This document shows, one piece after another, positions 9,786 through 39,832 of a stretch of 51,023 nt of DNA. Position 1 is the stretch's first letter, and every line of letters begins with the position of its first letter. The stretch comes from Actinomycetota bacterium (GTDB taxonomy: Bacteria; Actinomycetota; Actinomycetes; Actinomycetales; Microbacteriaceae), in the NCBI GenBank assembly GCA_018268515.1, contig JAFDWK010000029.1, positions 1-51,023 on the forward strand. Reading direction: 5' to 3'. Made by a program: the position numbers and the translations under genes. The notes beneath the pieces are model-generated. The model had not been told where the DNA came from, searched no databases, and saw only the letters and a list, made by a program, of their open reading frames with translations.

Positions 9786-12506
9786 ATGTCGTCACCCGAA
9801 TCCACGGTGAAGCCCCGCCGGCGCGCAGGACGGATCATCGGACGCACGGTCTTCGGCCTGATCGCGGGCATCGTGGTGCTCGCCACGGCCGCCGCCCTGT
9901 TCCTGGTGTGGACGGTGCAGCGCTCGTTCCCGCAGACCACCGGGGAGCTTGCGCTGAAGGGGCTGCAGGCGCCGGTGACCGTGCAGCGCGACGACCGCGG
10001 GATCCCCACGGTCACCGCCGACAACAGCCATGACCTGTTCTTCGCGCAGGGCTTCGTGCATGCGCAGGACCGGTTCTGGGAGATGGACTTCCGCCGGCAC
10101 GTGACCAGCGGCCGTGTCGCCGAGCTGTTCGGATCCTCGCAGGTCGCCACCGACGAGTTCCTGCGGACGCTGGACTGGCACGGGATCGCCGAGAAGGAGG
10201 TCGCGAACATGGATCCGACCACCCGCGGCTACTACCAGGCGTACGCGGACGGCGTGAACGCCTACCTCGCCGACCACAAGGGCGCGGAAGCCTCGTTCGA
10301 ATATGCCGTGGTCGGCATGACCAACCCGGGCTATCGGATCGCGCCGTGGACGCCCGCCGATTCCGTGGCCTGGCTGAAGGCGATGGCCTGGGATCTGCGC
10401 GGCAACGTCGAGGACGAGACGACGCGCGCGCTGCTGGCGCCGACGGTCGACACCGCCACGATGAACGAGATCTATCCAGCGTATCCGTTCGACCGGAACC
10501 CCGTGATCGTGCCGACGATCACGCCGATGGGTCAGGGCGGGTCCGGATCCAGATCCGTTGCCGTTGCCGTTGCGGCGAGCGCCGACGGCTCGGCCCCGGG
10601 CGCTTCGACAGGCTCAGCGACCGGGGATGCAGGCTCCGCGAGCGGGGGCGGCGGCTCCGCGAGCACGCCCGCTGCCGCCGGCCCGGCCGTGCGCTGGACC
10701 ACCGCGGGCAGCACCCTCGAGGCCGTGCAGACCCTGCTCGGCAATCCCGGCGAGGGGATCGGATCCAACTCCTGGGTGGTCTCCGGATCCCTCACCGCGA
10801 CCGGCAAGCCGCTGCTCGCGAACGACCCGCACCTGGGCGCGGCCCTGCCGTCGGTCTGGTATCAGATGCAGTTGCGCTGCCGCACGGTGAGCGCCGCCTG
10901 CCCGTTCGACGTGGGCGGCTTCTCATTCTCCGGTCTGCCCAGCATCGTGATCGGACACAACGCCGACATCGCCTGGGGCTTCACGAACCTCACCACCGAC
11001 GTCACCGACCTGTACATCGAGAAGATCGACGGCGACGCCTACTGGCGCGACGGGGTGAGTGTGCCGCTGCAGACGCGCACGGAGACCATCAAGGTCGCGG
11101 GCGGCGACGACATCACCCTCACGATCCGCTCCACCGTGCACGGACCGATCGTGTCGGGCCTCACCGACGACTTCACGGCGCTCGCGAAGACGCCGATCGT
11201 CGGCCGCGCCGACGCGGGCTCGCCGGGCGGCGAGACGGGCGTCGCCCCGGATTCCACCGCCGCGGCACTGCCCGGACAGTACGCCGTGAGCCTGCGCTGG
11301 ACGGCGCTGGATCCGGGCACCACCTCGACGGCGATCTTCGCCATGAACACGGCGAAGGACTTCACCGACTTCCGGCATGCGGCGTCGCTGTTCGACGTGC
11401 CGGCGCAGAACCTCATCTACGCCGATCAGAAGGGGAACATCGGCTACCAGACGCCGGGACGCCTGCCGATCCGCGGGGCGGGCAACGGCTACCTGCCGCA
11501 GCCCGGCTGGTCCAGCGCCTTCGACTGGACCGGGTACATCCCCTTCGAGCAGCTCCCCGTCTCCTACAACCCGGAGAAGGGCTACATCGTCACGGCGAAC
11601 AACGCGATCGTTCCCGACAGCTATCCCTACTTCCTCTCCCGGGACTGGGACTACGGCTACCGCGCTGCGCGGATCTCCAAGCTCATCGAGCGCACCGCGG
11701 CACAGCATCCGCTCACCGCGCAGGACATGCGCAGGATCCAGTTCGACCAGCAGAGCTGGATCGGCAAGCAGCTCGCGGCCGAGATGCAGGAGCTCCCGCC
11801 CTCGAAGGACGCCGGCGTGCGCCAGGCCGTGGGGCTGCTGAAGACCTGGGACGCGCAGGCGAGCGCCGATTCCGCCGCCGCGGCCTACGCGAACGTGCTC
11901 TGGCAGAACCTGGCGCTCAACATCTTCGCGAACCGCGAGCACCGGCTGCCCATGGACGGACAGGGCCGGCTGTTCACGGTCGTCGGAGCGATCCTGGAGA
12001 AGCCGGACGACCCGCTCTGGACCAACCCGAAGATCGGCGTCGCGGGGCGCGACGAGATGCTGGCGCTCTCGGCGACGCAGGCATACGACGAGCTGGTGAA
12101 GGCGCAGGGATCGGATCCGTCCCGGTGGAACTGGGGCGATCTGCACGCGATCACGCTCACCCACCAGACGCTCGGCAAGAGCGGCATCGCGCCGATCGAG
12201 TGGCTGTTCAATCGCGGCCCGTATCCGGTCGGCGGCGGATCCTCCCTCGTCGACGCCACCGGCTGGCCCCTCGGTGGCTCCTATGCGACGACCACCGTGC
12301 CGTCGATGCGGATGGTGGTCGATCTCTCCGACTTCGACGCTTCGACCTGGAACCACCTCACCGGGGCGAGCGGCCACGCCTTCAGCCCGCATTACACGGA
12401 TCAGACCGAGAACTGGTCGAAGGGCGTGCAGTCGCCCTGGGCGTTCTCGACCAAGGCTGTGGATGCGGCGACCGTGGACACCCTGGTGCTCAAACCCGCG
12501 GCCTGA
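9786..12506 (+). CDS. penicillin-acylase-family Ntn hydrolase
   Basis: Members of this 906-residue protein's family hydrolyse amide bonds of beta-lactams, acyl-homoserine lactones or other acyl amines after self-cleavage into alpha and beta chains. An N-terminal membrane segment (about residues 18-40) anchors or exports it. The alpha chain carries DDRGIPTVTADNSHDLFFAQG. The catalytic Ser that becomes the beta-chain N-terminus is Ser327 in GSNSWVVSG, followed by NDPHLGAALPSVWYQM. The final beta-chain motif SMRMVVDLSDFD is present. The spacer ahead of Ser327 is swollen by about 50 Ala/Gly/Ser residues and contains a REP-like repeat. Translation is probably modulated by the hairpin over its ribosome binding site. 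Substrate unknown. Confidence 0.9.
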   Translation: MSSPESTVKPRRRAGRIIGRTVFGLIAGIVVLATAAALFLVWTVQRSFPQTTGELALKGLQAPVTVQRDDRGIPTVTADNSHDLFFAQGFVHAQDRFWEMDFRRHVTSGRVAELFGSSQVATDEFLRTLDWHGIAEKEVANMDPTTRGYYQAYADGVNAYLADHKGAEASFEYAVVGMTNPGYRIAPWTPADSVAWLKAMAWDLRGNVEDETTRALLAPTVDTATMNEIYPAYPFDRNPVIVPTITPMGQGGSGSRSVAVAVAASADGSAPGASTGSATGDAGSASGGGGSASTPAAAGPAVRWTTAGSTLEAVQTLLGNPGEGIGSNSWVVSGSLTATGKPLLANDPHLGAALPSVWYQMQLRCRTVSAACPFDVGGFSFSGLPSIVIGHNADIAWGFTNLTTDVTDLYIEKIDGDAYWRDGVSVPLQTRTETIKVAGGDDITLTIRSTVHGPIVSGLTDDFTALAKTPIVGRADAGSPGGETGVAPDSTAAALPGQYAVSLRWTALDPGTTSTAIFAMNTAKDFTDFRHAASLFDVPAQNLIYADQKGNIGYQTPGRLPIRGAGNGYLPQPGWSSAFDWTGYIPFEQLPVSYNPEKGYIVTANNAIVPDSYPYFLSRDWDYGYRAARISKLIERTAAQHPLTAQDMRRIQFDQQSWIGKQLAAEMQELPPSKDAGVRQAVGLLKTWDAQASADSAAAAYANVLWQNLALNIFANREHRLPMDGQGRLFTVVGAILEKPDDPLWTNPKIGVAGRDEMLALSATQAYDELVKAQGSDPSRWNWGDLHAITLTHQTLGKSGIAPIEWLFNRGPYPVGGGSSLVDATGWPLGGSYATTTVPSMRMVVDLSDFDASTWNHLTGASGHAFSPHYTDQTENWSKGVQSPWAFSTKAVDAATVDTLVLKPAA
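10604..10622 (+). repeat. REP-like type A copy in the acylase spacer
   Basis: TTCGACAGGCTCAGCGACC is one mismatch from the type A consensus. It encodes part of a Ser/Gly/Ala stretch in the segment normally removed when the acylase matures. Confidence 0.75.
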
Positions 12507-15263: not shown

Positions 15264-15818
15264 GTGCAGCGGACGATGGTCGAGGGCGTGCGGATCGCGT
15301 GGACGCACACGGCGCCCGGTGACCGGCACCAGACCGGACGGGCGCTCATCCGGACGCTGGCCGCAGAGCTCGCCCCGGAGGCGGACCTGCGGGTCGAGCA
15401 GCGCTGCGCGGTCTGCGGCGGACCGCACGGCCGGCCGCAGTTTCCGCAGGCGCCGCTGCTCGCGAGCACGGCGTACGCGGATTCCTGGGTCGTCGTCGCC
15501 GTCGCCCATCGGCAGGATGCGGCCGCGATCGGCATCGACGTGGAGCTCGAGGGATCGGCACCCGAGCTCGCACTCCTTTTCGCCCCGGGGGATCCCCCGG
15601 GTCTGCGCGGCTGGACGGCGATCGAGGCGGCGCTCAAGGCCGACGGACGCGGTCTCATGGTGCCTCCGGACCGGGTGCGCCTCTCCCCCGACGGCCGGGC
15701 CACGGTGCCGGGCGGCGGCGAGTTCCGGATCCTCCCGGTCGCCGCTGCGCCCGGCACGATCGTCACGCTCGCGCTGCGGCGCCCGGGTTCAGACCTGCCG
15801 CCCACGCGTCGACCGTGA
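15264..15818 (+). CDS. 4'-phosphopantetheinyl transferase superfamily protein
   Basis: This 184-residue protein is predicted to move the phosphopantetheine arm of coenzyme A to the conserved Ser of carrier domains. The Mg2+-binding motif IGIDVELEG (about residues 92-100) and the helix WTAIEAALKADG (about 118-129) match the Sfp-type pattern G-D-E and W--E---K, although the usual Lys before the Glu is Ile. The N-terminal CAVCGGPHGRP is typical of the family. It is small, and the C-terminal portion ends soon after the second motif. It is convergent with the peptidase/NRPS operon, 290 bp away, and is the nearest candidate for priming that NRPS. The target is inferred from proximity. Confidence 0.75.
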   Translation: MQRTMVEGVRIAWTHTAPGDRHQTGRALIRTLAAELAPEADLRVEQRCAVCGGPHGRPQFPQAPLLASTAYADSWVVVAVAHRQDAAAIGIDVELEGSAPELALLFAPGDPPGLRGWTAIEAALKADGRGLMVPPDRVRLSPDGRATVPGGGEFRILPVAAAPGTIVTLALRRPGSDLPPTRRP

Positions 15819-16108: not shown

Positions 16109-16147
16109 TCAGCGCTCACCGGCGACGCGCACGCCGACGTTCAGCGC
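16005..16147. repeat. tandem array of a 32-bp unit over the 3' end of the M1 peptidase
   Basis: There are four full copies (16005-16036, 16037-16068, 16069-16100, 16101-16132) and a 15-bp partial copy (16133-16147). Copies two and three are identical and the others differ at a few bases. The array has no spacers. The partial copy and most of the fourth are coding (minus strand), and the stop codon of the peptidase lies in the fourth copy. Confidence 0.9.
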
Positions 16148-17482
16148 CTGGGTCACCGGGGCGGGCTCGACCGCCGCAGAACCCACCGGAGCCGCGGGCA
16201 GCGGGGGCACGGTCTCGGCGTCGAGCCAGGCGTCGAAGAAGGCCTCCAGGCTGCGGCCGGAAACCGAGGCGGCGTGCCGGCGGAAGTCCTCCGTGGTCGC
16301 GATCGCGCCGGCGTGGCGTTCGGTCCACTCGCGCAGGATCCGGAAGAACACGTCGTCGCCCACGGTCAGCCGCAGCGCGTGCAGCAGCAGAGCCCCCCGC
16401 TTGTACACGCGGTCGTCGAACATGAGCTCCGGGCCCGGGTCGGACAGCACGAGATCCTGCGGCTCGGCGGCGAGCGCGGCCCAGTGCCCGAGCGCCTTGG
16501 CGTGCGCGCTGTGGCCGCCGCTGCGCTCGGACCAGATCCACTCGGCGTAGCAGGCGAAGCCCTCGTTCAGCCAGATGTCCCGCCAGCGGGCGACGCCCAC
16601 ACTGTTGCCGAACCACTGGTGCGCGAGCTCGTGCGCGATGAGACGCTCGAGACTGCCCCGGCCGTCGATGTGGTTCGCGCCGAACACGCCCATGCCCTGA
16701 GCCTCGAGCGGGATCTCCAGATCGTCGGCGGTCACCACGAGCCGGTAGGACGGCAGCGGATACCGCCCGAACGCCTCGGCGAACACGGCCATCATCTGCG
16801 GCAGCGGCGCCAGATCCGCATCCACCCGCGCGGTCAGCCCCGCCGGATGCAGCACCTGCCCCTCGACCCCGGAGAGATCCATGCTCCGGGAGACATATTT
16901 CCCGATCTGCACCGTCGCAAGGTAGCTCGCCGTGGGCGCGGTGCGCTCGAACACCCAGGTCGTGCGCCCGCCCTTGGTCGTCGTGGACACCGGCTCGGCG
17001 GCGGCGACCGCATAACCGGGATCCGTGGTGATCGAGAGCCGATAGGTCGCCCTGTCGGAGGGGTGGTCGTTGCAGGGGAACCACGACGGCGCCCCGATCG
17101 GCTGCGAGGCGACGATCGCGCCGTCCTCCAGCTCCTCCCAGCCGAGCGTGCCCCAGCGGGTGCGGCGCGGGCGGGGCGCGCCGCCGTAGGAGATCGTGAG
17201 CTCGAACGGATCCCCCGCCGCGAGTTCGCGGCCGAACGCGACCTTGACCTTGCGGTCGGTCTGCGTGAATCCGATGCGCCCGCCGAGATCGCCGCGCACC
17301 TTGGTCGCGCGCAGCCCCGCGAGATCCAGTGAGATCGCCCTGGTCGGCTCGACGACCCGTCCGTGCACGACCGCGACGCCGTCCAGCCGGTTGGTGCCGA
17401 GCCGGTAGTCGATGGTCAGGTCGTAGTGCTCGACGCGGTAGCGGCGGTCTCCGGAATGCGGGGTGTAGTCGTCGGGGCTCAC
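16109..17482 (-). CDS. M1-family zinc metallopeptidase
   Basis: This 457-residue enzyme is predicted to remove N-terminal residues or cut small peptides. The zinc site HELAHQWFG (about residues 283-291) and the downstream third ligand in NEGFACYAEW (about 305-314) are intact. The substrate loop upstream reads GMGVFGANHID rather than the classic GAMEN, so specificity may be unusual. It is short for M1: it has the N-terminal beta domain and the catalytic domain but no long C-terminal helical domain. I see no signal peptide. The GTG start lies 33 nt after the NRPS stop, so the two are co-transcribed. Trimming or degrading the NRPS product is a reasonable guess. The C-terminal end is shaped by a tandem repeat. 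Confidence 0.9.
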   Translation of the reverse strand: MSPDDYTPHSGDRRYRVEHYDLTIDYRLGTNRLDGVAVVHGRVVEPTRAISLDLAGLRATKVRGDLGGRIGFTQTDRKVKVAFGRELAAGDPFELTISYGGAPRPRRTRWGTLGWEELEDGAIVASQPIGAPSWFPCNDHPSDRATYRLSITTDPGYAVAAAEPVSTTTKGGRTTWVFERTAPTASYLATVQIGKYVSRSMDLSGVEGQVLHPAGLTARVDADLAPLPQMMAVFAEAFGRYPLPSYRLVVTADDLEIPLEAQGMGVFGANHIDGRGSLERLIAHELAHQWFGNSVGVARWRDIWLNEGFACYAEWIWSERSGGHSAHAKALGHWAALAAEPQDLVLSDPGPELMFDDRVYKRGALLLHALRLTVGDDVFFRILREWTERHAGAIATTEDFRRHAASVSGRSLEAFFDAWLDAETVPPLPAAPVGSAAVEPAPVTQALNVGVRVAGER

Positions 17483-17515
17483 GGTTCCATGCTCACAGAT
17501 CGCGACGCGAAGCCG

Positions 17516-20500
17516 TCACTGCGCGGGCCTTTCGGGCCCTTCGACAGGCTCAGGGACCGACCGGAGTGGATCCGGCTCGGGGGGCGACGGCGCCACGGAC
17601 GGGTCCTGGTAGCTGCGCACCTTGACCGCGCGCCAGGGACCGATCGGGTTGCCGCTCCAGCGGCTGCCCACCGGCACGCTCTCCCCGCGCATGACGAGCG
17701 AGGCCGGCCCGACGGTCGCATCGGATCCGATGGTCGCGGCGGGCAGGATCACGCTGTGCGGGCCGAGGGTCGCACCGGCCTCGAGCGTGACGGTATCGAT
17801 GCTCATCACGCGGTCGTGGAAGAGGTGGGTCTGCACCACGCAGCCGCGGTTGACCGTCGCGCCGTCGCCGAGCGTGACCAGATCCGGCTCGGGCAGCCAG
17901 TAGCTGTCGGTCCAGACACCGGTGCCGATCGTCGCGCCGAGCGAGCGCAGCCACACGGCGAGCGCAGGCGTGCCCGCCGCCGCATTGGCGAACCAGGGAG
18001 CTGCCATCATCTCGGTGAACGTGTCGGCGACCTCGGTACGCCACACGAAGCTCGACCAGAGCGGGTGCTCCCCGGGCCGGATCGGTCCGACGAACGCCCA
18101 CTTCGCCGCGGTGGCGAACCCCGCGGCGACCGCCCCGGCGGCCAGCAGCACCAGGCCCGAGAGCACCACGGTCCAGACCAGCCCGATGCTCGTGGCGAGA
18201 GCGGCGAGCGTCAGCAGCACCGCGAGGCCCAGGGCGCAGGTGAGGATCACCGGCACGATGCGGCACAGCTCCCACAGGCCCCGGGCGATGCGCAGCGAGG
18301 TACGCGGGCGATAGGTGCGCTCCAGATCCGACTCGTTGACCACCCGGCGCAACCGCACCGGCGGGGAGCCGAGCCAGGAGGATCCCGCCTTCGCCTTGTC
18401 GGGTGCCACCGAGAGCACCGCGACCAGTCCGTCCCTGGGCACCTTGTGTCCGGCACCGGCCATGCCCGAGTTGCCGAGGAAGGCGCGCTTGCCGATGCGC
18501 GCGGAGGCCAACCGCATCCAGCCGCCGCCGAGCTCGTAGGACGCCACCATGGTGTCGTCGGCGAGGAAGGCGCCGTCATCGATCGTCGTCATCGAGGGGA
18601 TCAGCAGCACCGTGGAGATCTCCACCTCTTTGCCGACCTTCGCCCCGAGAAGGCGCAGCCAGATGGGGGTGAACAGGCTCGCGTAGAGCGGGAAGAGCAG
18701 CGTGCGGGCGGAGTCGAGCAGCCGCTCTGTGGTCCACGCCTGCCAGGCGATGCGCCCGCGGACGGGGTGGATCCCCTCCCGCAGCCCGATCGAGAGCAAC
18801 CGGGTCGCCGCCACCACGAGCGCGGCGAACACCAGCCCGGTCACGAGCACCGAGGGCACGAGCCAGACCGCGAGTCCGGGCAGCGCCGCACCGAGCGAGG
18901 CGGCGCCCCGCGCGCCCTGCACGAGCATCAGCGCACCGAGGGCGAACGCGATCACGGGCAGCAGGCCGAGACCCATGCTCGATCCGGCATACGCCCACAG
19001 CCAGCGCCGCGGCGTGGGCGGGCGCTCGGGGGCGAGCGGTGCGGACTTGCCGCCGACGCGCACCGCGGGCGACCCCGCCCAGCGCTGCCCCGCGCGCACC
19101 CGGCCGAACACGGCGGACCCGGGCGCCACCTCGGCGGCGCGCCCGATCCGCGTGCCGGGGGCGAGTGTGCTGCGCGCGCCGACCACGGCGCCCGCGCCGA
19201 TCCGGATGGCACCGATGCGCACGACATCGCCGTCGATCCAGTAGCCGGACAGGTCGACCTCGGGCTCGATCGCCGCGCCCCGGCCGACGTCGAGCATGCC
19301 GGTCACCGGCGGCAGCGTGTGCAGGTCGACGTCGGGCCCGATCTTCGCCCCGAGCGCCCGGGCGTAGTAGCTCACCCACGGCGCGCCGGCGAAGCCGACG
19401 GGGTCGATCTGCTGGCTGACCTGCTCCGCGAGCCAGAGCCGCAGGTGCACCCCTCCGCCACGCGGATAGTCGCCCGCGCGTACCCCGGCGAGCAGGATGC
19501 GGGCGGCGACCGCGGAGATCGCCATGCGCCCGAACGGCGTCGCGAAGACCAGCAGCCCCACGATGAGCACCCACAGGGGCGCGGTCGGCAGCCACTCGAA
19601 CCCGGGGGCGAGGTGCAGGATCGCGCTGCCGGTGAGCAGCCACAGCACCCACCGGATGCCGCCGAGCACGAACAGCGGCGCGCCCAGGAGCGTCTGGATC
19701 CACTGCATGCGCCGCGGCGTGGGCCGCGACTCGTGGAAGTCGCCGGGCTCGGGCTCGTCGTCGCCGGCCTCGGCCTCGACCGCGTCGGCCATCCGGCGCA
19801 GGCGCGGCAGGTCGTACACATCGGCCATCGTGAACTCCGGGGCGCGGGACCGGATCCGGCTCACCAGCTGCGCGGCCGCGAGGGATCCGCCGCCGAGCTG
19901 GAAGAAGTCGGCGTCCTCGTCGAGCGGCCGGGTGCCGAGCACGGCGAACCACTGCTCGGCGAGCCAGGCCGCGGTGCCGGTGAGGGTCGAGTCATCGGCG
20001 TCCGGATCCGTCAGCGGCCACGGCAGCGCCGCCTTGTCGACCTTGCCCGAAGTGCGCACGGGCAGGTCGTCCATGACGGCGAGCAGCGGGATGAGCGGGG
20101 CGGGGAGCGTCTCGGCGAGCTCCGCGCGCGCGATCTGCCGGTCGAAGCCCTCGGTCGGCACCACGTAGCCCACGAGCAGCGGAATACCGCCCTCGCTGCG
20201 CTGCACGACGACGGTCGCCGCCGTGACCGCGGTGAGGTTCTGCAGCGCGGCCTCGACCTCGCCGAGCTCGATGCGCCGGCCGCCGATCTTCACCTGGTCG
20301 TCCGCGCGACCCTGGAACACGAGGCCCGCCTCCTCGTAGCGCACGAGATCGCCGGAGCGGTAGGCGCGGTCCCAGCCCAGGGACGCCATCGGCGCGTACT
20401 TCTCCGCGTCCTTCGCGGGGTCCAGGTACCGGGCGAGGCCGACCCCGCCGATCACGAGCTCGCCGGACTCGCCCTCGGCGACCCGGTTGCCCTCGGCATC

Positions 20501-21592
20501 GACGACGGCGAGCTCCCAGCCGTCCAGCGGCAGGCCGATCCGCACCGGCTCCCCCGCCCGCAGCGCCTCGCCGTCCATCTCGGCGGCGCACGCGACGACC
20601 GTGGCCTCGGTGGGTCCGTACGTGTTCCAGACCTCGCGGTCCTCGCCGACCAGCCGCGCGGCGAGCTCGGGCGGCAGCGCCTCGCCGCCGAAGATGAGCA
20701 GCCGCAGGTTCTCGATCGCATCCTGCGGCCAGAGGGCGGCGAGCGTGGGCACGGTCGAGACGATGGTGATGCCGTGGCCGAGCAGCCACGGGCCGAGGTC
20801 TTCGCCGGAGCGCACCAGGGCGCGCGGGGCCGGCACGAGGCAGGCGCCGTAGCGCCACGCCAGCCACATCTCCTCGCAGGAGGCGTCGAACGCGACGGAG
20901 AGCCCGGCCAGCACCCGGTCGCCCGGACCGATCGGCGCGTCCTGCAGGAACAGGTTCGCCTCCGCGTCGACGAACGCGGCAGCGGAGCGGTGCGTCACCG
21001 CCACGCCCTTGGGTACCCCGGTCGATCCGGAGGTGAAGATGATCCAGGCGTCGTCCAGCGGCATCGGATGCGGCACGGTCGTGATCGAGACCGAGTTCGG
21101 ATGCGGGTCGTCGCCGTCGAACAGCCCGGATCCGGTGCCCGCGGTCCCGGAGCCTGTCGAAGGGACGTCGTCCGCGGCGGGGGCATGCGGCGCGAACACC
21201 CCGCCCGCACCGATCACGCCGCGCACCTTCGCCTCGCCGAAGACCAGATCCGCCCGCTCCTGCGGATCGTCCGCGTCGACCGGGACGTACGCCGCGCCGG
21301 CCGCGAGCGTGCCGAGGATCGCGAGGTAGAGCCCGCGCCCACCCGACGGCATCCTGATTCCGACCCGGTCGCCGCGCATCACACCGTGCTCCCGCAGGCG
21401 GGCCGCGGTGCGCCAGACCTGGGCGAGCAGCTCGGCGTAGCTGAGCGCGCCGGCGGCGTCCTCGATCGCAGAGGCGTCCGGGTGCCGCCGCGCGGTGTCG
21501 ACGAGGATGTCGATCAGCGTGCGCGGCGTCGCCGCGAGCGCGGCGCGGTCGAGGATGTCTTGCATCGGGTTCCGTTCGAGCAGTGGGCGCAC
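17516..21592 (-). CDS. Pls/PosA-type membrane NRPS (poly-amino-acid synthetase-like)
   Basis: This 1358-residue protein has an adenylation domain (about residues 15-530), with A3 FTSGSTGVPKG near 186, A4 FDASCEEMW near 234, A5 NTYGPTEA and A10 RTSGKVDK near 511. A carrier domain with FFQLGGGSLAAA (Ser near 569) follows. The rest alternates pairs of membrane helices with three left-handed beta-helix (hexapeptide) acyltransferase-like domains. There is no condensation domain and no thioesterase. This is the layout and size of epsilon-poly-L-lysine synthetase and its relatives, which polymerise one basic amino acid through side-chain or main-chain amides at the membrane. The pocket residues read D-A-E-S-I-G-T-V-V, similar to a lysine code. 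REP-like copies sit in the A domain and at the C-terminus. GTG 21592 is used; ATG 21565 is an alternative. Confidence 0.9.
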   Translation of the reverse strand: MRPLLERNPMQDILDRAALAATPRTLIDILVDTARRHPDASAIEDAAGALSYAELLAQVWRTAARLREHGVMRGDRVGIRMPSGGRGLYLAILGTLAAGAAYVPVDADDPQERADLVFGEAKVRGVIGAGGVFAPHAPAADDVPSTGSGTAGTGSGLFDGDDPHPNSVSITTVPHPMPLDDAWIIFTSGSTGVPKGVAVTHRSAAAFVDAEANLFLQDAPIGPGDRVLAGLSVAFDASCEEMWLAWRYGACLVPAPRALVRSGEDLGPWLLGHGITIVSTVPTLAALWPQDAIENLRLLIFGGEALPPELAARLVGEDREVWNTYGPTEATVVACAAEMDGEALRAGEPVRIGLPLDGWELAVVDAEGNRVAEGESGELVIGGVGLARYLDPAKDAEKYAPMASLGWDRAYRSGDLVRYEEAGLVFQGRADDQVKIGGRRIELGEVEAALQNLTAVTAATVVVQRSEGGIPLLVGYVVPTEGFDRQIARAELAETLPAPLIPLLAVMDDLPVRTSGKVDKAALPWPLTDPDADDSTLTGTAAWLAEQWFAVLGTRPLDEDADFFQLGGGSLAAAQLVSRIRSRAPEFTMADVYDLPRLRRMADAVEAEAGDDEPEPGDFHESRPTPRRMQWIQTLLGAPLFVLGGIRWVLWLLTGSAILHLAPGFEWLPTAPLWVLIVGLLVFATPFGRMAISAVAARILLAGVRAGDYPRGGGVHLRLWLAEQVSQQIDPVGFAGAPWVSYYARALGAKIGPDVDLHTLPPVTGMLDVGRGAAIEPEVDLSGYWIDGDVVRIGAIRIGAGAVVGARSTLAPGTRIGRAAEVAPGSAVFGRVRAGQRWAGSPAVRVGGKSAPLAPERPPTPRRWLWAYAGSSMGLGLLPVIAFALGALMLVQGARGAASLGAALPGLAVWLVPSVLVTGLVFAALVVAATRLLSIGLREGIHPVRGRIAWQAWTTERLLDSARTLLFPLYASLFTPIWLRLLGAKVGKEVEISTVLLIPSMTTIDDGAFLADDTMVASYELGGGWMRLASARIGKRAFLGNSGMAGAGHKVPRDGLVAVLSVAPDKAKAGSSWLGSPPVRLRRVVNESDLERTYRPRTSLRIARGLWELCRIVPVILTCALGLAVLLTLAALATSIGLVWTVVLSGLVLLAAGAVAAGFATAAKWAFVGPIRPGEHPLWSSFVWRTEVADTFTEMMAAPWFANAAAGTPALAVWLRSLGATIGTGVWTDSYWLPEPDLVTLGDGATVNRGCVVQTHLFHDRVMSIDTVTLEAGATLGPHSVILPAATIGSDATVGPASLVMRGESVPVGSRWSGNPIGPWRAVKVRSYQDPSVAPSPPEPDPLRSVPEPVEGPERPAQ
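17540..17558 (+). repeat. exact REP-like type A copy at the NRPS C-terminus
   Basis: TTCGACAGGCTCAGGGACC. On the coding strand it gives SVPEPVEGP, 10-20 residues before the NRPS stop. Confidence 0.8.
21143..21161 (-). repeat. REP-like type A copy in the NRPS adenylation domain
   Basis: One mismatch from consensus. It encodes VPSTGSGTAG in a loop between motifs A2 and A3, where extra length is tolerated. Confidence 0.75.
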
Positions 21593-21668: not shown

Positions 21669-22058
21669 TCAGCCGGCGGCGGGCGGGGTGCGCTTCGATT
21701 CGGCGAGCTCGTCGACCACCAGCCCGCGCTCGTCGATCGTGCCGTTGCGGTAGGCCTGGCGGCCGACCATGTGCGCCGACAGCGGCGCGGTGGCGAACTG
21801 CATGAGCACGACCGGAGCCACCAGCAGCAGCCCCAGCCCGATGCCGATCACGGAGCGCTGCGACAGCGCGATCGCCAGGCAGATCAGCAGCAGGCCGAGC
21901 ACCTGCGGCTTGGTGGCGGCGTGCAGCCGGTTCGGCACGTCGCGCAGTCGCAGCAGGCCGATCGCGGCGATGAGGCACAGCAGCGCGCCGAGCAGCACGA
22001 GGATCCACACGGCCGTGTCCACGACCACGTCGGGGATCCGCAGCTCGAAGATGTTCAT
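21669..22058 (-). CDS. mnhG: Mrp-type Na+/H+ antiporter subunit G
   Basis: This is the small membrane subunit of the multi-subunit cation/proton antiporter: 129 residues, three membrane helices (about 12-35, 45-65 and 68-90). The signature GLLRLRDVPNRLHAATK before the second helix is typical of MnhG/MrpG. It is the last gene of the operon, 88 bp after subunit F, and has a polar tail with KRTPPAAG at the end. It acts only in complex with subunits A to F. The longer gap to subunit F is the only break in an otherwise overlapping operon. Confidence 0.93.
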   Translation of the reverse strand: MNIFELRIPDVVVDTAVWILVLLGALLCLIAAIGLLRLRDVPNRLHAATKPQVLGLLLICLAIALSQRSVIGIGLGLLLVAPVVLMQFATAPLSAHMVGRQAYRNGTIDERGLVVDELAESKRTPPAAG

Positions 22059-22146
22059 CGCCGCCTCCCGTCGCTGCCCGTCCGGCGCGCGCGGACGTGG
22101 TGGGTGCGGACACGGTGGGTGCAGACACGGTGGGTGCAGATCGCGT

Positions 22147-22416
22147 TCATGACGGCGTGTTGTCCCTCCGCGCGACGTACCGCGCCACCGAGATGGATCC
22201 GAACACGCCCACCGCCGCCACGACGATGAGCACCGGCAGCGTGCGGGTGTGGTGGTTGATGGCCATGTCCGCGCCGAGCACGCAGATGACCTCGGTGAGC
22301 AGCACGTCGGCAGCGACCACCCGGTCGAGGATCGACGGCCCGATCACGATCCGGATCACGGCGAGGAGCGCGGCGACCGCGAACACGATCATGATGACGA
22401 GCAGCAGTGGGTTCAT
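22147..22416 (-). CDS. mnhF: Mrp-type Na+/H+ antiporter subunit F
   Basis: This 89-residue protein has three membrane helices. The family hallmark GPSILDRVVAADVL lies between helices one and two. The start ATG overlaps the stop of subunit E by 4 bp (ATGA), so it is translationally coupled. It has normal length and no odd features. Confidence 0.93.
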   Translation of the reverse strand: MNPLLLVIMIVFAVAALLAVIRIVIGPSILDRVVAADVLLTEVICVLGADMAINHHTRTLPVLIVVAAVGVFGSISVARYVARRDNTPS

Positions 22417-22988
22417 CGACGGCCCTCCTCGGCGCGCTCGTCGGCGCGCAATGCGGCGGCCTGCGCCGGCGATCCCAGCGCGCGCACGATGCGACGCTCC
22501 CAGCGCAGCACCCCGGCACGCTGATGCTCGACGTCGGCGAGCGAGCGGACGCCGATCACGTGCAGGTACAGCGTGCGGGTGTCGCGGTCGGTGTCGACCA
22601 CGAGGGATCCAGGGATGAGCGATGACGTGACCGCCACGTGCGTCATCACGAGATCGTCGGCGTACCGCAGCGGCACCGCGATGATGGCGGCCCCCGGCGG
22701 ACGCCGCGGGTTCAGCACCTGCACCGCGACGCTCAGCGAGCCGTGCACGACCGCCGCGAGGAACTGCACCACCAGCAGCGCCGCCCACCACAGGTTGATC
22801 CGACCGGAGAGCTCGATCGTGGGCAGCCGGAACACGCGGGTCACGAACAGCGCCACGGCGATGCCGGTCACCGCCGACAGCACCGTGAACTGGCCCCACA
22901 GCAGCATCCACAGCACGACGAGCCAGAGCAGGAACGGCAGCTGCACGCGGATCTCGCGCCAGAGGCCGCGCTTCGCCTCGGTGCTCAT
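22413..22988 (-). CDS. mnhE: Mrp-type Na+/H+ antiporter subunit E
   Basis: This 191-residue protein has two or three N-terminal membrane helices (about 17-50 and 66-90), then a soluble domain with VPLRYADDLVMTHVAVTSSLIPGSLVVD in family-typical form (TPGTL-like motif as IPGSL) and a basic C-terminal tail. The start and stop overlap subunits D and F by 4 bp each. The C-terminal 40 residues are a little longer than in short bacterial MnhE proteins. Confidence 0.93.
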   Translation of the reverse strand: MSTEAKRGLWREIRVQLPFLLWLVVLWMLLWGQFTVLSAVTGIAVALFVTRVFRLPTIELSGRINLWWAALLVVQFLAAVVHGSLSVAVQVLNPRRPPGAAIIAVPLRYADDLVMTHVAVTSSLIPGSLVVDTDRDTRTLYLHVIGVRSLADVEHQRAGVLRWERRIVRALGSPAQAAALRADERAEEGRR

Positions 22989-24547
22989 GAGCTCGCTCCG
23001 TCGCCGTCGAGCATGTCGAGGTGCACCGGCTGCAGCAGGTTCGCGCCGATGCGCTCGCAGAGCCCGTAGATGGGCCCCGCGAACACGGTCAGGGCGAGGG
23101 TGACGGCGACCATCCCGCCCGTCGCGAGAGTCATGATGGTCGGGATCCGGCGCCGCTCCTGCTGCTCGTCCGCGGCCGGAGCGCTGCCGAGATGGGCGAT
23201 GCGCTCGTTGTCCGCCTCCTCCGGCGTCTCGTCCTTGCTGCGCCAGAACGCCAGGTTCCATGCCCGCATGAGCGCGTAGAGCGTGAGCAGCGAGGTGAGC
23301 ACGCCGCCGACGATGAGCACCCAGATCAGCGGAGTGGCGACCTGCGCGGCCGCCTGGAACAGCGCGAACTTGCCGATGAACCCCGAGAAGGGCGGGAGAC
23401 CTCCGAGGTTGATCGCCGGCACGAAGTAGAGCACCGCGATCAGCGGCGCCGCCTTCATGAGCCCCCGCACCTTGAGGATCGAGGTGCTGCCGGCCCGGCG
23501 TTCCACGAGGCCGACGGCGAGGAAGAGCGTGGTCTGCACGATGATGTGGTGCACGATGTAGTACACCGTGGCGCCGATCGCGGCGGGAGTCGCGATCGCC
23601 AGGCCGAACACCATGTACCCCACGTGGCTCACCAGCGTGAACGACAGTATTCGCTTCAGCTCCGCCTGCGCGACGGCGCCGAGGATGCCGATCACCATGG
23701 TCGCCAGAGCCACGATCATCAACAGCGTGTTGATGCTGGACACGTTGAACAGCTGCGTCTCGGTGCGGATCAGCGCATACACGCCGACCTTGGTCAGCAG
23801 GCCCGCGAACACCGCCGTGACCGGAGCGGGGGCGGTCGGATACGAGTCGGGCAGCCAGAACGACATCGGGAACACGGCCGCCTTGATGCCGAACGCGACC
23901 ACGAGCATGAGGTGCAGCACGAGCTGGGTGCTGGGCGGGATCTCCCCGATCCGCTCGGCGATCTGCGCCATGTTCACGGTGCCGAGCGCGGCGTAGATGA
24001 GCGCGATCGCGACGAGGAACAGCACCGACGACACCAGCGAAACGACGATGTAGACCGCACCGGTGCGGATCCGGGATTCGGTGCTCCCCAGCGTGATGAG
24101 CACATAGGAGGCGACCAGCAGGATCTCGAACCCGACGTAGAGGTTGAACAGGTCGCCGGCGATGAACGCGTTGAAGATGCCCGCCGCGAGGATCAGGTAC
24201 GACGGGTTGAAGATCGAGATCGGCGTCTCCTCGGCGCCGTCGGCCGCCCCCTGACCCACCGAGAAGAGCAGCACCGCGACGAGGACGATGCTCGAGATCA
24301 GCACGAGCAACGCGGCGAGGCGGTCGACGTAGAGCACGATGCCGAAGGGCGCGGGCCAGCCGCCCACCATCACCGCAATCGGCGTGGTCTGGTCCACCAC
24401 GACGAGAAGGGTGGCGGCGATCACCGACACCGCGGCGAGGGTGATCACCGTGACGATGACCTGCACCCGGGTGTTGCGGCCGAAGACGAGCGTGACTGCG
24501 GCGCCGAGGAGCGGCAGGGCGACGAGCAGCGGGACGAGGGCGTTCAT
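22985..24547 (-). CDS. mnhD: Mrp-type Na+/H+ antiporter subunit D
   Basis: This 520-residue protein has about 14 membrane helices and is homologous to the proton-pumping subunits NuoM/N of complex I. The transport Lys and Glu regions are visible: LYVGFEILLVASYVLI (the TM5 Glu), KAAVFPMSFWLPDSYP (Lys and Pro motif of TM7) and LKRILSFTLVSHVGYMV. It overlaps subunits C and E by 4 bp each. It transports protons or Na+ across the membrane as part of the complex. No motif is missing. Confidence 0.95.
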   Translation of the reverse strand: MNALVPLLVALPLLGAAVTLVFGRNTRVQVIVTVITLAAVSVIAATLLVVVDQTTPIAVMVGGWPAPFGIVLYVDRLAALLVLISSIVLVAVLLFSVGQGAADGAEETPISIFNPSYLILAAGIFNAFIAGDLFNLYVGFEILLVASYVLITLGSTESRIRTGAVYIVVSLVSSVLFLVAIALIYAALGTVNMAQIAERIGEIPPSTQLVLHLMLVVAFGIKAAVFPMSFWLPDSYPTAPAPVTAVFAGLLTKVGVYALIRTETQLFNVSSINTLLMIVALATMVIGILGAVAQAELKRILSFTLVSHVGYMVFGLAIATPAAIGATVYYIVHHIIVQTTLFLAVGLVERRAGSTSILKVRGLMKAAPLIAVLYFVPAINLGGLPPFSGFIGKFALFQAAAQVATPLIWVLIVGGVLTSLLTLYALMRAWNLAFWRSKDETPEEADNERIAHLGSAPAADEQQERRRIPTIMTLATGGMVAVTLALTVFAGPIYGLCERIGANLLQPVHLDMLDGDGASS

Positions 24548-25197
24548 CGCGGCTCCTCCCCCAGGTTGCGGTCGTCGTCTTCGGTCTCGGTCGACCCCTC
24601 ATCGGCTCCGGTTCGAGTGGAGCGCCCTTCGTCCCGCTCCGCTCGCTCAGGGACCGACGACGGGGATCCAGGGACCGACGGGCGGGCCGGATGCGGATCC
24701 GGCCGGTCGACCGGGGCGTCGTCGACGATTCCGGCCAGATCCCGGGCGTGCAGCACCCGGATCGGCGAGGTGGCCACGCCCACGAAGTCGGTCGTGGCGT
24801 CCTCGCCCTCCTGGTCGACCTCGTCGTCCATGAGGTCTTCCTCGATCTCGGTGCGCTCGCGCAGCGCGATGTCGGTCTCGTCGTCCTCGACCGTGTCGGC
24901 CTTGCCCAGCTGCCAGGAGCGGTAGATGAGCGCGAGCAGGAACGCCGAGACGGCGAACGTGATCACGATCGCGGTGAGCGTGAGCGCCTGCGGCAGCGGG
25001 TCGCTCACGTCGCCGTCAATGCCGAAGAAGGGCGCCTTGCCGGGACGGCCCATCACGATCAGCAGCAGCAGGTTCACCGCGTTGCCCAGCAGCAGGAAGC
25101 CGATCAGCACGCGCGTCAGGCTGCGCTCGAGCATCGCGTACACGCCGCAGCCGAACAGCACGGCCATGATCACGATCAGCACCAGGGAGACATCCAT
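24544..25197 (-). CDS. mnhC: Mrp-type Na+/H+ antiporter subunit C with long acidic tail
   Basis: The first 100 residues of this 217-residue protein are a normal NuoK-like subunit: three helices with GFLLLGNAVNLLLLIVMG and DPLPQALTLTAIVI. After KADTVEDDETD the protein continues for about 110 residues of hydrophilic, acidic, low-complexity sequence, roughly doubling the usual length. Part of this tail is encoded by a REP-like repeat (24628-24655). The tail would lie in the cytoplasm and is likely disordered. The start overlaps the subunit A stop by one base (TGATG). It is needed for complex assembly in characterised systems. Confidence 0.93.
   Translation of the reverse strand: MDVSLVLIVIMAVLFGCGVYAMLERSLTRVLIGFLLLGNAVNLLLLIVMGRPGKAPFFGIDGDVSDPLPQALTLTAIVITFAVSAFLLALIYRSWQLGKADTVEDDETDIALRERTEIEEDLMDDEVDQEGEDATTDFVGVATSPIRVLHARDLAGIVDDAPVDRPDPHPARPSVPGSPSSVPERAERDEGRSTRTGADEGSTETEDDDRNLGEEPR
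24628..24655 (-). repeat. REP-like hybrid (type B start, type A end)
   Basis: TTCGTCCCGCTCCGCTCGC followed by TCAGGGACC. It ends like type A and begins like type B, inside the acidic tail of subunit C. Confidence 0.5.
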
Positions 25198-28142
25198 CAG
25201 ACGTCCACCCCCCGTGCGCGCATCTCGAGCGTCTGCCGGTCGACCTCGGCACCAAGGCTGCGCAGCACGTCGAGCACAAGCCCGATCACCACGAGGTAGA
25301 CCCCGATGTCGAAGAAGGTGGAGCTGACGAACTCGATGTGGCCGATGACGGGGATGTCCGCCTCCCACACCGCGCTCGACAGCGGCGCCAGCCCGAAGAA
25401 CAGCGGCACCACGGCCGCCCCGACCGCGAGGATGAGCCCTGCCCCCAGCAGGCGCCCGGCGTCGGTGGGCGCGGCGGCACCGAGCTCCCAGCGGCCGCCC
25501 GCGATGTAGCGCATGACCAGCGCCATGCCCGCGACCAGACCGCCGGCGAAGCCGCCGCCGGGGGCGTTGTGCCCCGCGAAGAGCAGGTAGATCGAGACGA
25601 CGATGATGGTGTGGAACAGGATCCGCACGATCACCTCGAGCAGGATCGAGCGGTTCTCCGGCTTGACGTTGCCGCCGCCGATGAGCCAGGCCCGCGGCGC
25701 CGTGTCGCCGGCGGTCTGCACCCGCACGCCCTCGGTGGTCTCCACGAGGGGCCTGCGACGGACCTTCCGCGGTCCCTCGGGCAGCGCCTTCGTGGCGGAG
25801 AGGCGGTCGGCGCGGTGCGTGACGAACACGAGGGATGCGACGCCGGTGGCGGCGAGGACCAGCACCGACAGCTCCCCCATCGTGTCCCAGCCGCGCAGGT
25901 CGACCAGGGCCACGTTCACGACGTTCTTGCCATGGCCGAGCTCGTAGGCGAGTTTCGGGAACGCCGTGGAGATGGGCTCGGCGACCCGGGATCCGGTCGC
26001 GACGATCGCGACCGCCGCGATCATCACGCCGGCCGCGATGCCGAGGATCGCCCGCGGCACCCGGCCGACCGAGGCGTTGTGCTCGCCCATGCGCGCCGGC
26101 AGCCGCCGCAGCACGAGCGCGAATGTGACGAGGGTCACCGTCTCCACGAGGATCTGGGTGAGCGCCAGATCGGGGGCACCGCTCGTGCCGAACAGCACCA
26201 CCATGCCGAGGCCGGTGACCGACACGAGCACGACCCCGGTGTAGCGCTTCTGCGCGCGGATCGCGAGCAGGCCCGCGATGATCATGATCGGCGCCACCAC
26301 CAGCTGCACCGGGGTGTGCCAGGCGCTCAGCTGCGCGTTCATCGGACCGCCGGCAAGGAGCGCGGTGGTCTCCCCCGCGATGACGACGACGAAGATCGTG
26401 CCGACGTAAACAGGCAGCGAACCGCGCTGGGTGAGCGAGGTGGTCACGACCGAGAGGCGGTCCACGCTGCGCATCACGAGGTAATAGGCGTCCTGCGCGG
26501 TGACGCGGAGCAGGCGCGGACGCCGATCCCAGCCGATCCGGCGGGTGAGCGGGAACAGCACCAGTCCGAGCAGCACCGCCCCGAGCGAGAGGAACAGGGC
26601 GGGCGCCAGGCCGTGCCAGAGGGCGAGCTCGCCCGGTTCCAGGATCGCCCCGTCATAGCCCGGCGCCTTGGCGTCCTCCGCATACCCGTCCAGCGCCGCG
26701 CTCATCACCGCGGCGAACGGGCTCAGCGCGACGGTGCCGAAGGCGAGCAGCACCGGCGACACCAGGAAGCCGAACGGTGGCCGCGGCCATTCCGTATCCG
26801 GCATGAAGGATCCGGTCGCGTCCTTCTTGCGCCAGAACGCCCCCCACAGGAACCTCGCACCGTATGCCGCAGTGAGAATGGACCCGAGGATCACTCCCGC
26901 CAAGGCCACGATCCCCCACGGGGAGCCGCGCTGGGCCTCGTCGAACAGGGCCGCGAGCGTGGACTCCTTGGCGATGAAGCCGAGCGTCGGCGGGATGCCC
27001 ATCATGGATCCGACCGCGAGGAAGCCGGCGGTCGCCAGCAGCGGCGCTTGACGGCCCAGTCCGCTGATCTCCGTGACGTCGCGGGTCGAGAGCTGACGGT
27101 CGATGACGCCCACGATGAGGAACAGCGACGACTTGAACAGGGCGTGGCTGATCACCAGGGCGAGCCCGGCGAGGATCGCGTCCGGAGTGCCGTAGCCCAG
27201 CACGACGGTGAAGAATCCGAGCTGACTGACGGTGCCGAACGCGAGTATGCGCTTCAGATCGGTCTCCCGCAGCGCCTGCACGCCGCCGAGCAGCATCGTG
27301 AACACGCCGAGCGCGATCGTGATCGGCCGCCAGGGGCCGGACAGCGCGAACACCGGGGCGAACCGCGCGATGAGGTAGATGCCCGCCTTCACCATCGCCG
27401 CCGCATGCAGGTAGGCGCTCACCGGGGTGGGCGCCGCCATCGCGCCGGGCAGCCAGAAGTGGAACGGGAAGATCGCCGACTTGCTCAGCGCGCCGACCAG
27501 CAGCAGCACGATCGCGGCGTCGACCAGCGGCCCGGTCGGGTGCAGCTCGAGGATCCGCGACATGCTCGACGTGCCGGCGGTGACGGCGAGGAACACCACG
27601 CCGATGAACATCGCGAGGCCCCCGAGCGTGGTCACCAGCAGCGCCTGCAGGGCGGCTCGACGGCTGGCACCGCGGCGGTGGTAGTACCCGATCAGCAGGT
27701 AGGACAGGATGCTGGTGACCTCCCAGAACATCACCAGCAGCACCAGGTCGTCGGTGGTCACCAGGCCGTACATCGCACCGGCGAAGGCCAGCAGCACCGC
27801 GGCGAACTGCCCGATGCCCTCTTTCGAGCCGCGGAAGTACCAGCGGCAGTAGAGCAGCACCAGTGCGCCGACGCCGGTGACGATGAGCGCGAGCAGCCAG
27901 CTGAGCTCGTCCAGCCGGAACGAGAGCGAGAGACCGAGCTGCGGGATCCAGTCGACCGACTCCCGGGGCGTCAGCTCCGGATGCTCGGATCCGAGGAGCA
28001 CCTGGGGGGTGAGTGCCGCCGTGTGCACGAAGGCGGCGGCCGGCACGAGCGCGGCGACCGCGAAGGCGCGTGCTCCGATCCAGGCGACCAGCAGCGGCAG
28101 CAGCAGCGCCGCGAGGGCGAACACGCAGAGGAGAGTCAGCAC
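25197..28142 (-). CDS. mnhA: Mrp-type Na+/H+ antiporter subunit A with MrpB-like C-terminus
   Basis: This 981-residue protein has an N-terminal NuoL-like core of about 16 helices with HAAAMVKAGIYLIARF and LKRILAFGTVSQLGF (transport Lys), then further helices and a C-terminal domain (about 840-970) with FAGHNAPGGGFAGGLVAGMALVMRYI, the hallmark of MrpB. Having both in one chain explains why no separate mnhB gene is present. It is the first gene of the operon; its GTG start has AGGAGA 6 nt upstream. The complex expels Na+ (and K+ in some species) in exchange for protons, supporting alkaline pH and salt tolerance. Confidence 0.95.
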   Translation of the reverse strand: MLTLLCVFALAALLLPLLVAWIGARAFAVAALVPAAAFVHTAALTPQVLLGSEHPELTPRESVDWIPQLGLSLSFRLDELSWLLALIVTGVGALVLLYCRWYFRGSKEGIGQFAAVLLAFAGAMYGLVTTDDLVLLVMFWEVTSILSYLLIGYYHRRGASRRAALQALLVTTLGGLAMFIGVVFLAVTAGTSSMSRILELHPTGPLVDAAIVLLLVGALSKSAIFPFHFWLPGAMAAPTPVSAYLHAAAMVKAGIYLIARFAPVFALSGPWRPITIALGVFTMLLGGVQALRETDLKRILAFGTVSQLGFFTVVLGYGTPDAILAGLALVISHALFKSSLFLIVGVIDRQLSTRDVTEISGLGRQAPLLATAGFLAVGSMMGIPPTLGFIAKESTLAALFDEAQRGSPWGIVALAGVILGSILTAAYGARFLWGAFWRKKDATGSFMPDTEWPRPPFGFLVSPVLLAFGTVALSPFAAVMSAALDGYAEDAKAPGYDGAILEPGELALWHGLAPALFLSLGAVLLGLVLFPLTRRIGWDRRPRLLRVTAQDAYYLVMRSVDRLSVVTTSLTQRGSLPVYVGTIFVVVIAGETTALLAGGPMNAQLSAWHTPVQLVVAPIMIIAGLLAIRAQKRYTGVVLVSVTGLGMVVLFGTSGAPDLALTQILVETVTLVTFALVLRRLPARMGEHNASVGRVPRAILGIAAGVMIAAVAIVATGSRVAEPISTAFPKLAYELGHGKNVVNVALVDLRGWDTMGELSVLVLAATGVASLVFVTHRADRLSATKALPEGPRKVRRRPLVETTEGVRVQTAGDTAPRAWLIGGGNVKPENRSILLEVIVRILFHTIIVVSIYLLFAGHNAPGGGFAGGLVAGMALVMRYIAGGRWELGAAAPTDAGRLLGAGLILAVGAAVVPLFFGLAPLSSAVWEADIPVIGHIEFVSSTFFDIGVYLVVIGLVLDVLRSLGAEVDRQTLEMRARGVDV

Positions 28143-37992: not shown

Positions 37993-37998
37993 GACCGT

Positions 37999-39832
<1,834 letters not shown>

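Follow-up and report, generated by a model that had tools for sequence, protein, structure and literature searches.

The 51,023-nucleotide contig JAFDWK010000029.1 (assembly GCA_018268515.1), referred to throughout as the window, derives from an actinomycete of the family Microbacteriaceae and carries a gene, pls, for a large membrane-type non-ribosomal peptide synthetase (NRPS). It is followed by an M1-family metallopeptidase gene and, on the opposite strand, by a gene for a putative phosphopantetheinyl transferase (Table 1). We conclude that this locus very probably encodes the biosynthesis of epsilon-poly-L-lysine, with L-lysine the best-supported substrate predicted for its adenylation (A) domain. 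An earlier note on this DNA, made without database searches, had proposed a cationic poly-amino-acid synthetase for lysine or a close analogue, and the analysis supports that proposal and favours lysine.

Judged by its profile match, the pls product is an intact member of the Pls/PosA family (TIGR02353). This profile gives it 730.6 bits, where the curated cut-off is 423.1, with residues 632-1317 aligning with positions 2-695 of the 695 in the model; of the four matches in the strain's own 3.7-Mb genome, pls alone lies above the cut-off. The open reading frame (ORF) is unbroken over 1358 codons from the listed GTG start. Pfam (E <= 0.001) places AMP-binding at residues 32-388, PP-binding at 543-605 and a single Hexapep stretch at 796-828 and, because it gives no further family, the protein has no condensation or thioesterase domain at that threshold. 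The adenylation-thiolation-membrane (A-T-membrane) layout of the earlier note is thus borne out by Pfam together with TIGR02353, and its two ORFs – a synthetase of 1358 residues and an M1 peptidase 33 nt downstream – lie where it had placed them.

For comparison we used the best 80 of at least 595 related stretches from one scan, which come from actinobacteria such as Microbacterium, Leifsonia, Arthrobacter, Nocardia and Rhodococcus. Over aligned positions they share 59 to 82% identity with the window; the nearest named relative is Microbacterium album at 82%, and the nearest named records suggest that the window itself is from this genus. At the 324 alignment columns that are invariant in the relatives the window deviates at the start residue only, and this retention is evidence against pls having decayed. 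The ATG at 21565 (residue 10) is the likelier true start, because in 70 of the 80 relatives the aligned part begins at residue 8 or later. The window protein is also long, with 1358 residues against a median of 1309, a difference that is partly accounted for by a 25-residue C-terminal tail found in none of the 80.

Three hexapeptide domains had been proposed for the C-terminal part; Pfam recognizes one, and structure prediction supports three lobes. An AlphaFold2 model of residues 620-1326 (mean pLDDT 82.7, pTM 0.86), for which the window and 36 of the 80 relatives supplied the 37 input sequences, contains three repeats in which long helices are followed by short-strand segments. Foldseek returned 14 matches to the modelled domain at E <= 0.001, all of them hexapeptide-type acyltransferases or GlmU/LpxD; TM-scores to the best Protein Data Bank (PDB) matches lie at roughly 0.1 to 0.17 when normalized by query length and reach about 0.5 when normalized by target length, and the matches therefore support single lobes, not the whole domain. 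A hydropathy scan places hydrophobic stretches in three regions, with six helices not resolved by the scan itself. The modelled domain fits the family layout of three membrane-helix pairs and three beta-helix lobes. A phmmer search of the PDB with the same part gave 38 weak matches (best E 0.0012), named as gamma-carbonic anhydrases, acetyltransferases and similar proteins and, since only weak matches were found, there appears to be no close solved relative of the domain in the PDB copy searched, as far as sequence comparison goes.

The substrate pocket, located by motif and by alignment to 7wew, reads DAESIGTVVK. The first nine letters are those given in the earlier note, and the tenth is K517. 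The code is identical in all 81 sequences (the window and the best 80 relatives) and, as read from the alignment, in 7wew, an epsilon-poly-L-lysine synthase that we take to be from Streptomyces albulus. This entry is also the best PDB match of the A domain at 592.5 bits. PosA, an ornithine enzyme (8g95; PMC10522769), scores 194.2 bits, a comparison that is approximate because the chains are of unequal length (509 residues in 7wew, 414 in 8g95). Lysine enzymes carry Ala at position 2 of the pocket, PosA carries Met, and the enzymes for diaminopropionate and diaminobutyrate carry Phe (PDAP/PDAB; PMC10522769). A distant family member from Shinella yields DFEALGTVTK by the same motif mapping, which shows that the mapping discriminates between pockets.

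It is very improbable that the polymerized monomer is another diamino acid – ornithine, diaminobutyrate, diaminopropionate or beta-lysine. The Pls/PosA family does include enzymes for such substrates, and L-lysine is to some extent also a substrate of the PosA A domain, which binds and activates it, so that pockets are non-exclusive (PMC10522769). However, the Ala at position 2, where Met or Phe would be expected, and an A domain far nearer to Pls than to PosA make lysine more likely than ornithine or diaminobutyrate. A weaker argument in the same direction is that 17 hand-picked ORFs of the window contain, by Pfam, no member of an aminomutase, aminotransferase or aspartate-kinase family; five of these ORFs match nothing and are perhaps non-coding frames or undescribed proteins.

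The protein encoded directly downstream is, by its profile matches and metal-binding motif, a member of peptidase family M1. Its ORF of 457 codons lies behind a 33-nt gap and matches Peptidase_M1 (101.5 bits) and Peptidase_M1_N (55.3 bits), and the zinc motif HEXXH-18-E is present in all 81 peptidases of the window and relatives. All 80 related loci have a peptidase gene after pls; with starts chosen by script, the two genes overlap by 4 nt in 27 and lie within 150 nt of each other in 75, gaps reaching 139 nt, and in five loci the peptidase start is 561 to 2169 nt from pls. The S. albulus genes pls and pldII form a single operon with a 4-bp overlap (PMC4361855), PldII is an endo-type aminopeptidase at the exterior of the membrane (PMC9223678), and for the degrading enzyme that partners Streptomyces pls a role in self-protection has been postulated (PMC8117764). 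The earlier note had credited the organism with its own trimming enzyme. The linked gene in the pldII position stands; the trimming role is an argument from position and analogy, by which the peptidase probably breaks the polymer down by hydrolysis, as PldII would, whether for self-protection or for recycling.

The third gene, which we presume from its motifs to be Sfp-like, has its end at 15818; 290 bp separate it from the end of the peptidase ORF, within the 300 bp proposed earlier. On its own it matches ACPS (PF01648) at 18.6 bits, below the gathering score of 25, but 12 of 16 aligned proteins, that of the window included, match at E <= 0.1 (best 8e-15), and residues D88, W113, E117 and K121 are invariant in all 16. 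The strain's own genome yields two transferase candidates in an ACPS search, namely the pls-adjacent ORF and C67, which lies above the cut-off and is taken as AcpS, and two carriers in a PP-binding search, an 86-codon carrier ORF and Pls. A profile search found no Condensation domain in this assembly, which is about 96% complete in 115 contigs, so that an absence could be a gap. Together, these counts suggest a self-contained three-gene module.

TIGR02353 is above cut-off in 83 of 149 Microbacterium genomes, in three of them (G019, G046 and G102) as a fragment at a contig edge. Using a profile built from pls-linked proteins and scoring up to 22 candidates per genome, a close transferase (E <= 1e-20) is found in 81 of the 83 pls-positive and in 0 of the 66 pls-negative genomes, and within 6 kb of the pls match in 79 of the 83. 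Two pls-positive genomes (G120 and G142) lack the strong form, and in two others (G058 and G063) it is on a different contig from pls. The cut-off was set after viewing the list and sits in a narrow gap, with the weakest linked match at 1.9e-21, the strongest unlinked match at 8.6e-21 (in a pls-positive genome) and the strongest match in any pls-negative genome at 9.8e-19. The Fisher value of 1.3e-40 for the co-occurrence ignores shared ancestry, the genomes not being independent.

Across the 80 wider actinobacterial loci, the profile of alignment A1 detects a transferase-like ORF in 39, although 15 of these belong to A1 itself and are found by construction; tblastn alone was too insensitive, with 23 of 80 (24 counting the window). 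In 38 of the 39 the ORF is downstream on the opposite strand, and in one (L026) it is upstream and shares the strand of pls. The ORF is present in loci titled Arthrobacter, Curtobacterium and Cryobacterium, among others, and none was seen in loci titled Nocardia or Rhodococcus within the flanks searched, some of them short.

It is unlikely that the transferase is an unrelated neighbour of pls by chance. Being on the opposite strand it is transcribed separately, the ORF was not found in 41 of the 80 wider loci within the fetched flanks (some short), and a weaker match (E <= 0.001) occurs in 24 of the 66 pls-negative Microbacterium genomes by hand count. The restriction of the strong form to pls-positive genomes and its closeness to pls argue the other way, as do the mere two carriers and two transferase candidates of the strain's own genome. 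The transferase gene thus appears to belong to the pls locus, and is a near-constant companion of pls in the Microbacterium genomes examined. The suggestion of the earlier note that it is the synthetase's own activator has gained from both the carrier and transferase counts and the co-occurrence. We somewhat favour the view that in Microbacterium, and perhaps in neighbouring Micrococcales, pls, the peptidase gene and the diverged transferase make up one self-contained module whose genes have been gained and lost together, with the transferase dedicated to Pls. If so, an NRPS-type system resides in a genome that has, apart from it, one fatty-acid-type carrier and one AcpS; a dedicated activator would explain how Pls is activated where other NRPS machinery is lacking, and would be its natural co-expression partner. 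A literature search of titles and abstract openings gave no description that we recognized of a pls-linked transferase, and the stem 'phosphopantethein' is absent from the main text of PMC8117764 and PMC12067966, figures aside.

The proposed pathway to epsilon-poly-L-lysine begins with adenylation of L-lysine by the A domain, as its pocket and its closeness to Pls suggest. The neighbouring transferase would convert the carrier domain to its holo form, which would then carry lysine in thioester linkage. Round by round, the membrane domain with its three lobes would join lysines by way of the side-chain amine, as in Streptomyces Pls. The co-directional M1 peptidase would act on the polymer. The polymer of Streptomyces Pls contains 25-35 L-lysine residues.

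Some observations weigh against this assignment or against its expression as a product. The unanimity of the 80 relatives is partly a selection effect, since they are the best of at least 595, and the difference in score between 7wew and 8g95 is, as stated, approximate. Corynebacterium variabile pls, which has a peptidase gene beside it, yielded epsilon-poly-lysine in Streptomyces coelicolor, but C. variabile itself is reported to give no detectable polymer and no detected Pls protein, and Pls alone in C. glutamicum gave no product, the authors turning to the promoter, not to a transferase (PMC8117764). An intact gene therefore does not show production. It is accordingly possible, though not what we would expect first, that the window encodes a real lysine polymerase in a silent or less coupled locus that makes no polymer or traces of it, which is compatible with a role in epsilon-poly-L-lysine synthesis. 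The C. variabile precedent favours this (PMC8117764), as do the 33-nt gap before the peptidase gene, where 27 of the 80 relatives have the 4-nt overlap, and the repeat-bearing tail of pls in this strain; the conserved invariant residues, which argue against decay of pls, and the wider gaps of some other relatives speak against it.

The repeat in the tail is a 17-base sequence with 58 exact copies in the strain's own genome (reversed control, 0). A copy with one mismatch, identified by eye, lies at 21147-21163, at the site of a second window-only insert (residues 140-147). It may be that insertions of the repeat in frame extended pls and set the peptidase gene apart from it.

Among the closest characterized systems is S. 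albulus Pls/PldII, which has the same A-T-membrane layout, the same pocket letters as read in 7wew and a degrading-enzyme gene directly downstream of pls (PMC4361855). It differs in the 4-bp overlap of the two genes (PMC4361855) in place of a gap. A transferase gene adjoins the operon in the window, the surroundings of S. albulus pls being outside the comparison. PldII lies at the membrane exterior (PMC9223678), whereas the window peptidase has no strongly hydrophobic N-terminus in a crude hydropathy test that 6 of the 81 proteins pass. C. variabile and Microbacterium pls encode the same synthetase type, and the C. variabile operon also has a peptidase gene (PMC8117764); the C. variabile pls gene was tested by expression, whereas pls of the window is known from its sequence. 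Because Pls homologs are reported in coryneform actinobacteria including Microbacterium (PMC8117764), and M. canaveralium and M. jepli are credited with epsilon-poly-L-lysine clusters (PMC12067966), the kind of locus is already known.

PosA, the delta-poly-L-ornithine synthetase of Acinetobacter baumannii, shares the family and the C-terminal architecture (PMC10522769). Its code DMEHNGTVSK (PMC10522769) has D, E, G, T, V and K in common with that of the window, and differs at the other positions; its A-domain score is also lower. The Shinella member is on plasmid NZ_CP093339.1 (L089), the one inspected of the 53, among 1897 plasmid records, in which a single place spans 80% or more of the query. 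Directly beside its synthetase gene is an annotated phosphopantetheinyl transferase gene, so that the synthetase-transferase pairing recurs in a distant lineage. Unlike in the window, the two genes overlap and are co-directional, the pocket has the Phe form tied to diaminopropionate and diaminobutyrate, and there is no peptidase among the six annotated features at the locus.

The earlier note had held that producers outside Streptomyces and related genera are few. At the level of genes this is not supported, given at least 595 related stretches, pls in 83 of 149 Microbacterium genomes and pls already in print; these counts concern loci, and confirmed poly-lysine producers are fewer. Epsilon-poly-lysine is a food preservative for whose commercial manufacture S. 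albulus is used (PMC7317143) and, since pls is common in Microbacterium, many strains could be screened.

Table 1. Features of the pls locus, in positions of the window
Feature	Coordinates	Strand	Basis
pls, predicted epsilon-poly-L-lysine synthetase (A-T-membrane polymerization domain)	17516..21592	-	TIGR02353, 7wew match, invariant positions
Adenylation domain, pocket DAESIGTVVK	20012..21499	-	Pfam, 7wew alignment, pocket mapping
Thiolation (carrier) domain, PP-binding	19778..19966	-	Pfam PP-binding
Predicted C-terminal membrane polymerization domain, three helix/short-strand repeats	17642..19699	-	TIGR02353, AlphaFold2, Foldseek
M1-family metallopeptidase, pldII position	16109..17482	-	Pfam, zinc motif, follows pls in 80/80
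Putative phosphopantetheinyl transferase, convergent with operon	15276..15818	+	Sub-cut-off ACPS match, aligned relatives, co-occurrence with pls
Dispersed genome repeat copy inside pls 3' end, in window-only tail	17538..17554	+	58 exact genome copies

Several neighbouring genes were also noted. An Mnh/Mrp-type Na+/H+ antiporter operon (21669-28142, minus strand), in which MnhG was identified by Pfam and MnhA and MnhD were named by eye, lies upstream of pls, with its end 76 nt from the listed start. A functional coupling of the Mrp antiporter to pls was considered and rejected: tblastn (E <= 1e-4) with MnhA, MnhD and MnhG matched 0 of the 80 related loci (flanks of up to 10 kb, some shorter), and the adjacency is therefore treated as a local arrangement. 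A penicillin-amidase-family protein (9786-12506, plus strand; 773.7 bits) is encoded near the locus; a tblastn search of the 80 related pls loci for relatives of this protein gave none. A thiamine pyrophosphate (TPP) riboswitch (37995-38103, plus strand; Rfam, 66.8 bits) lies just upstream of the gene for a ThiC protein, whose listed ORF start at 38072 overlaps the riboswitch, so that the true start is probably later.

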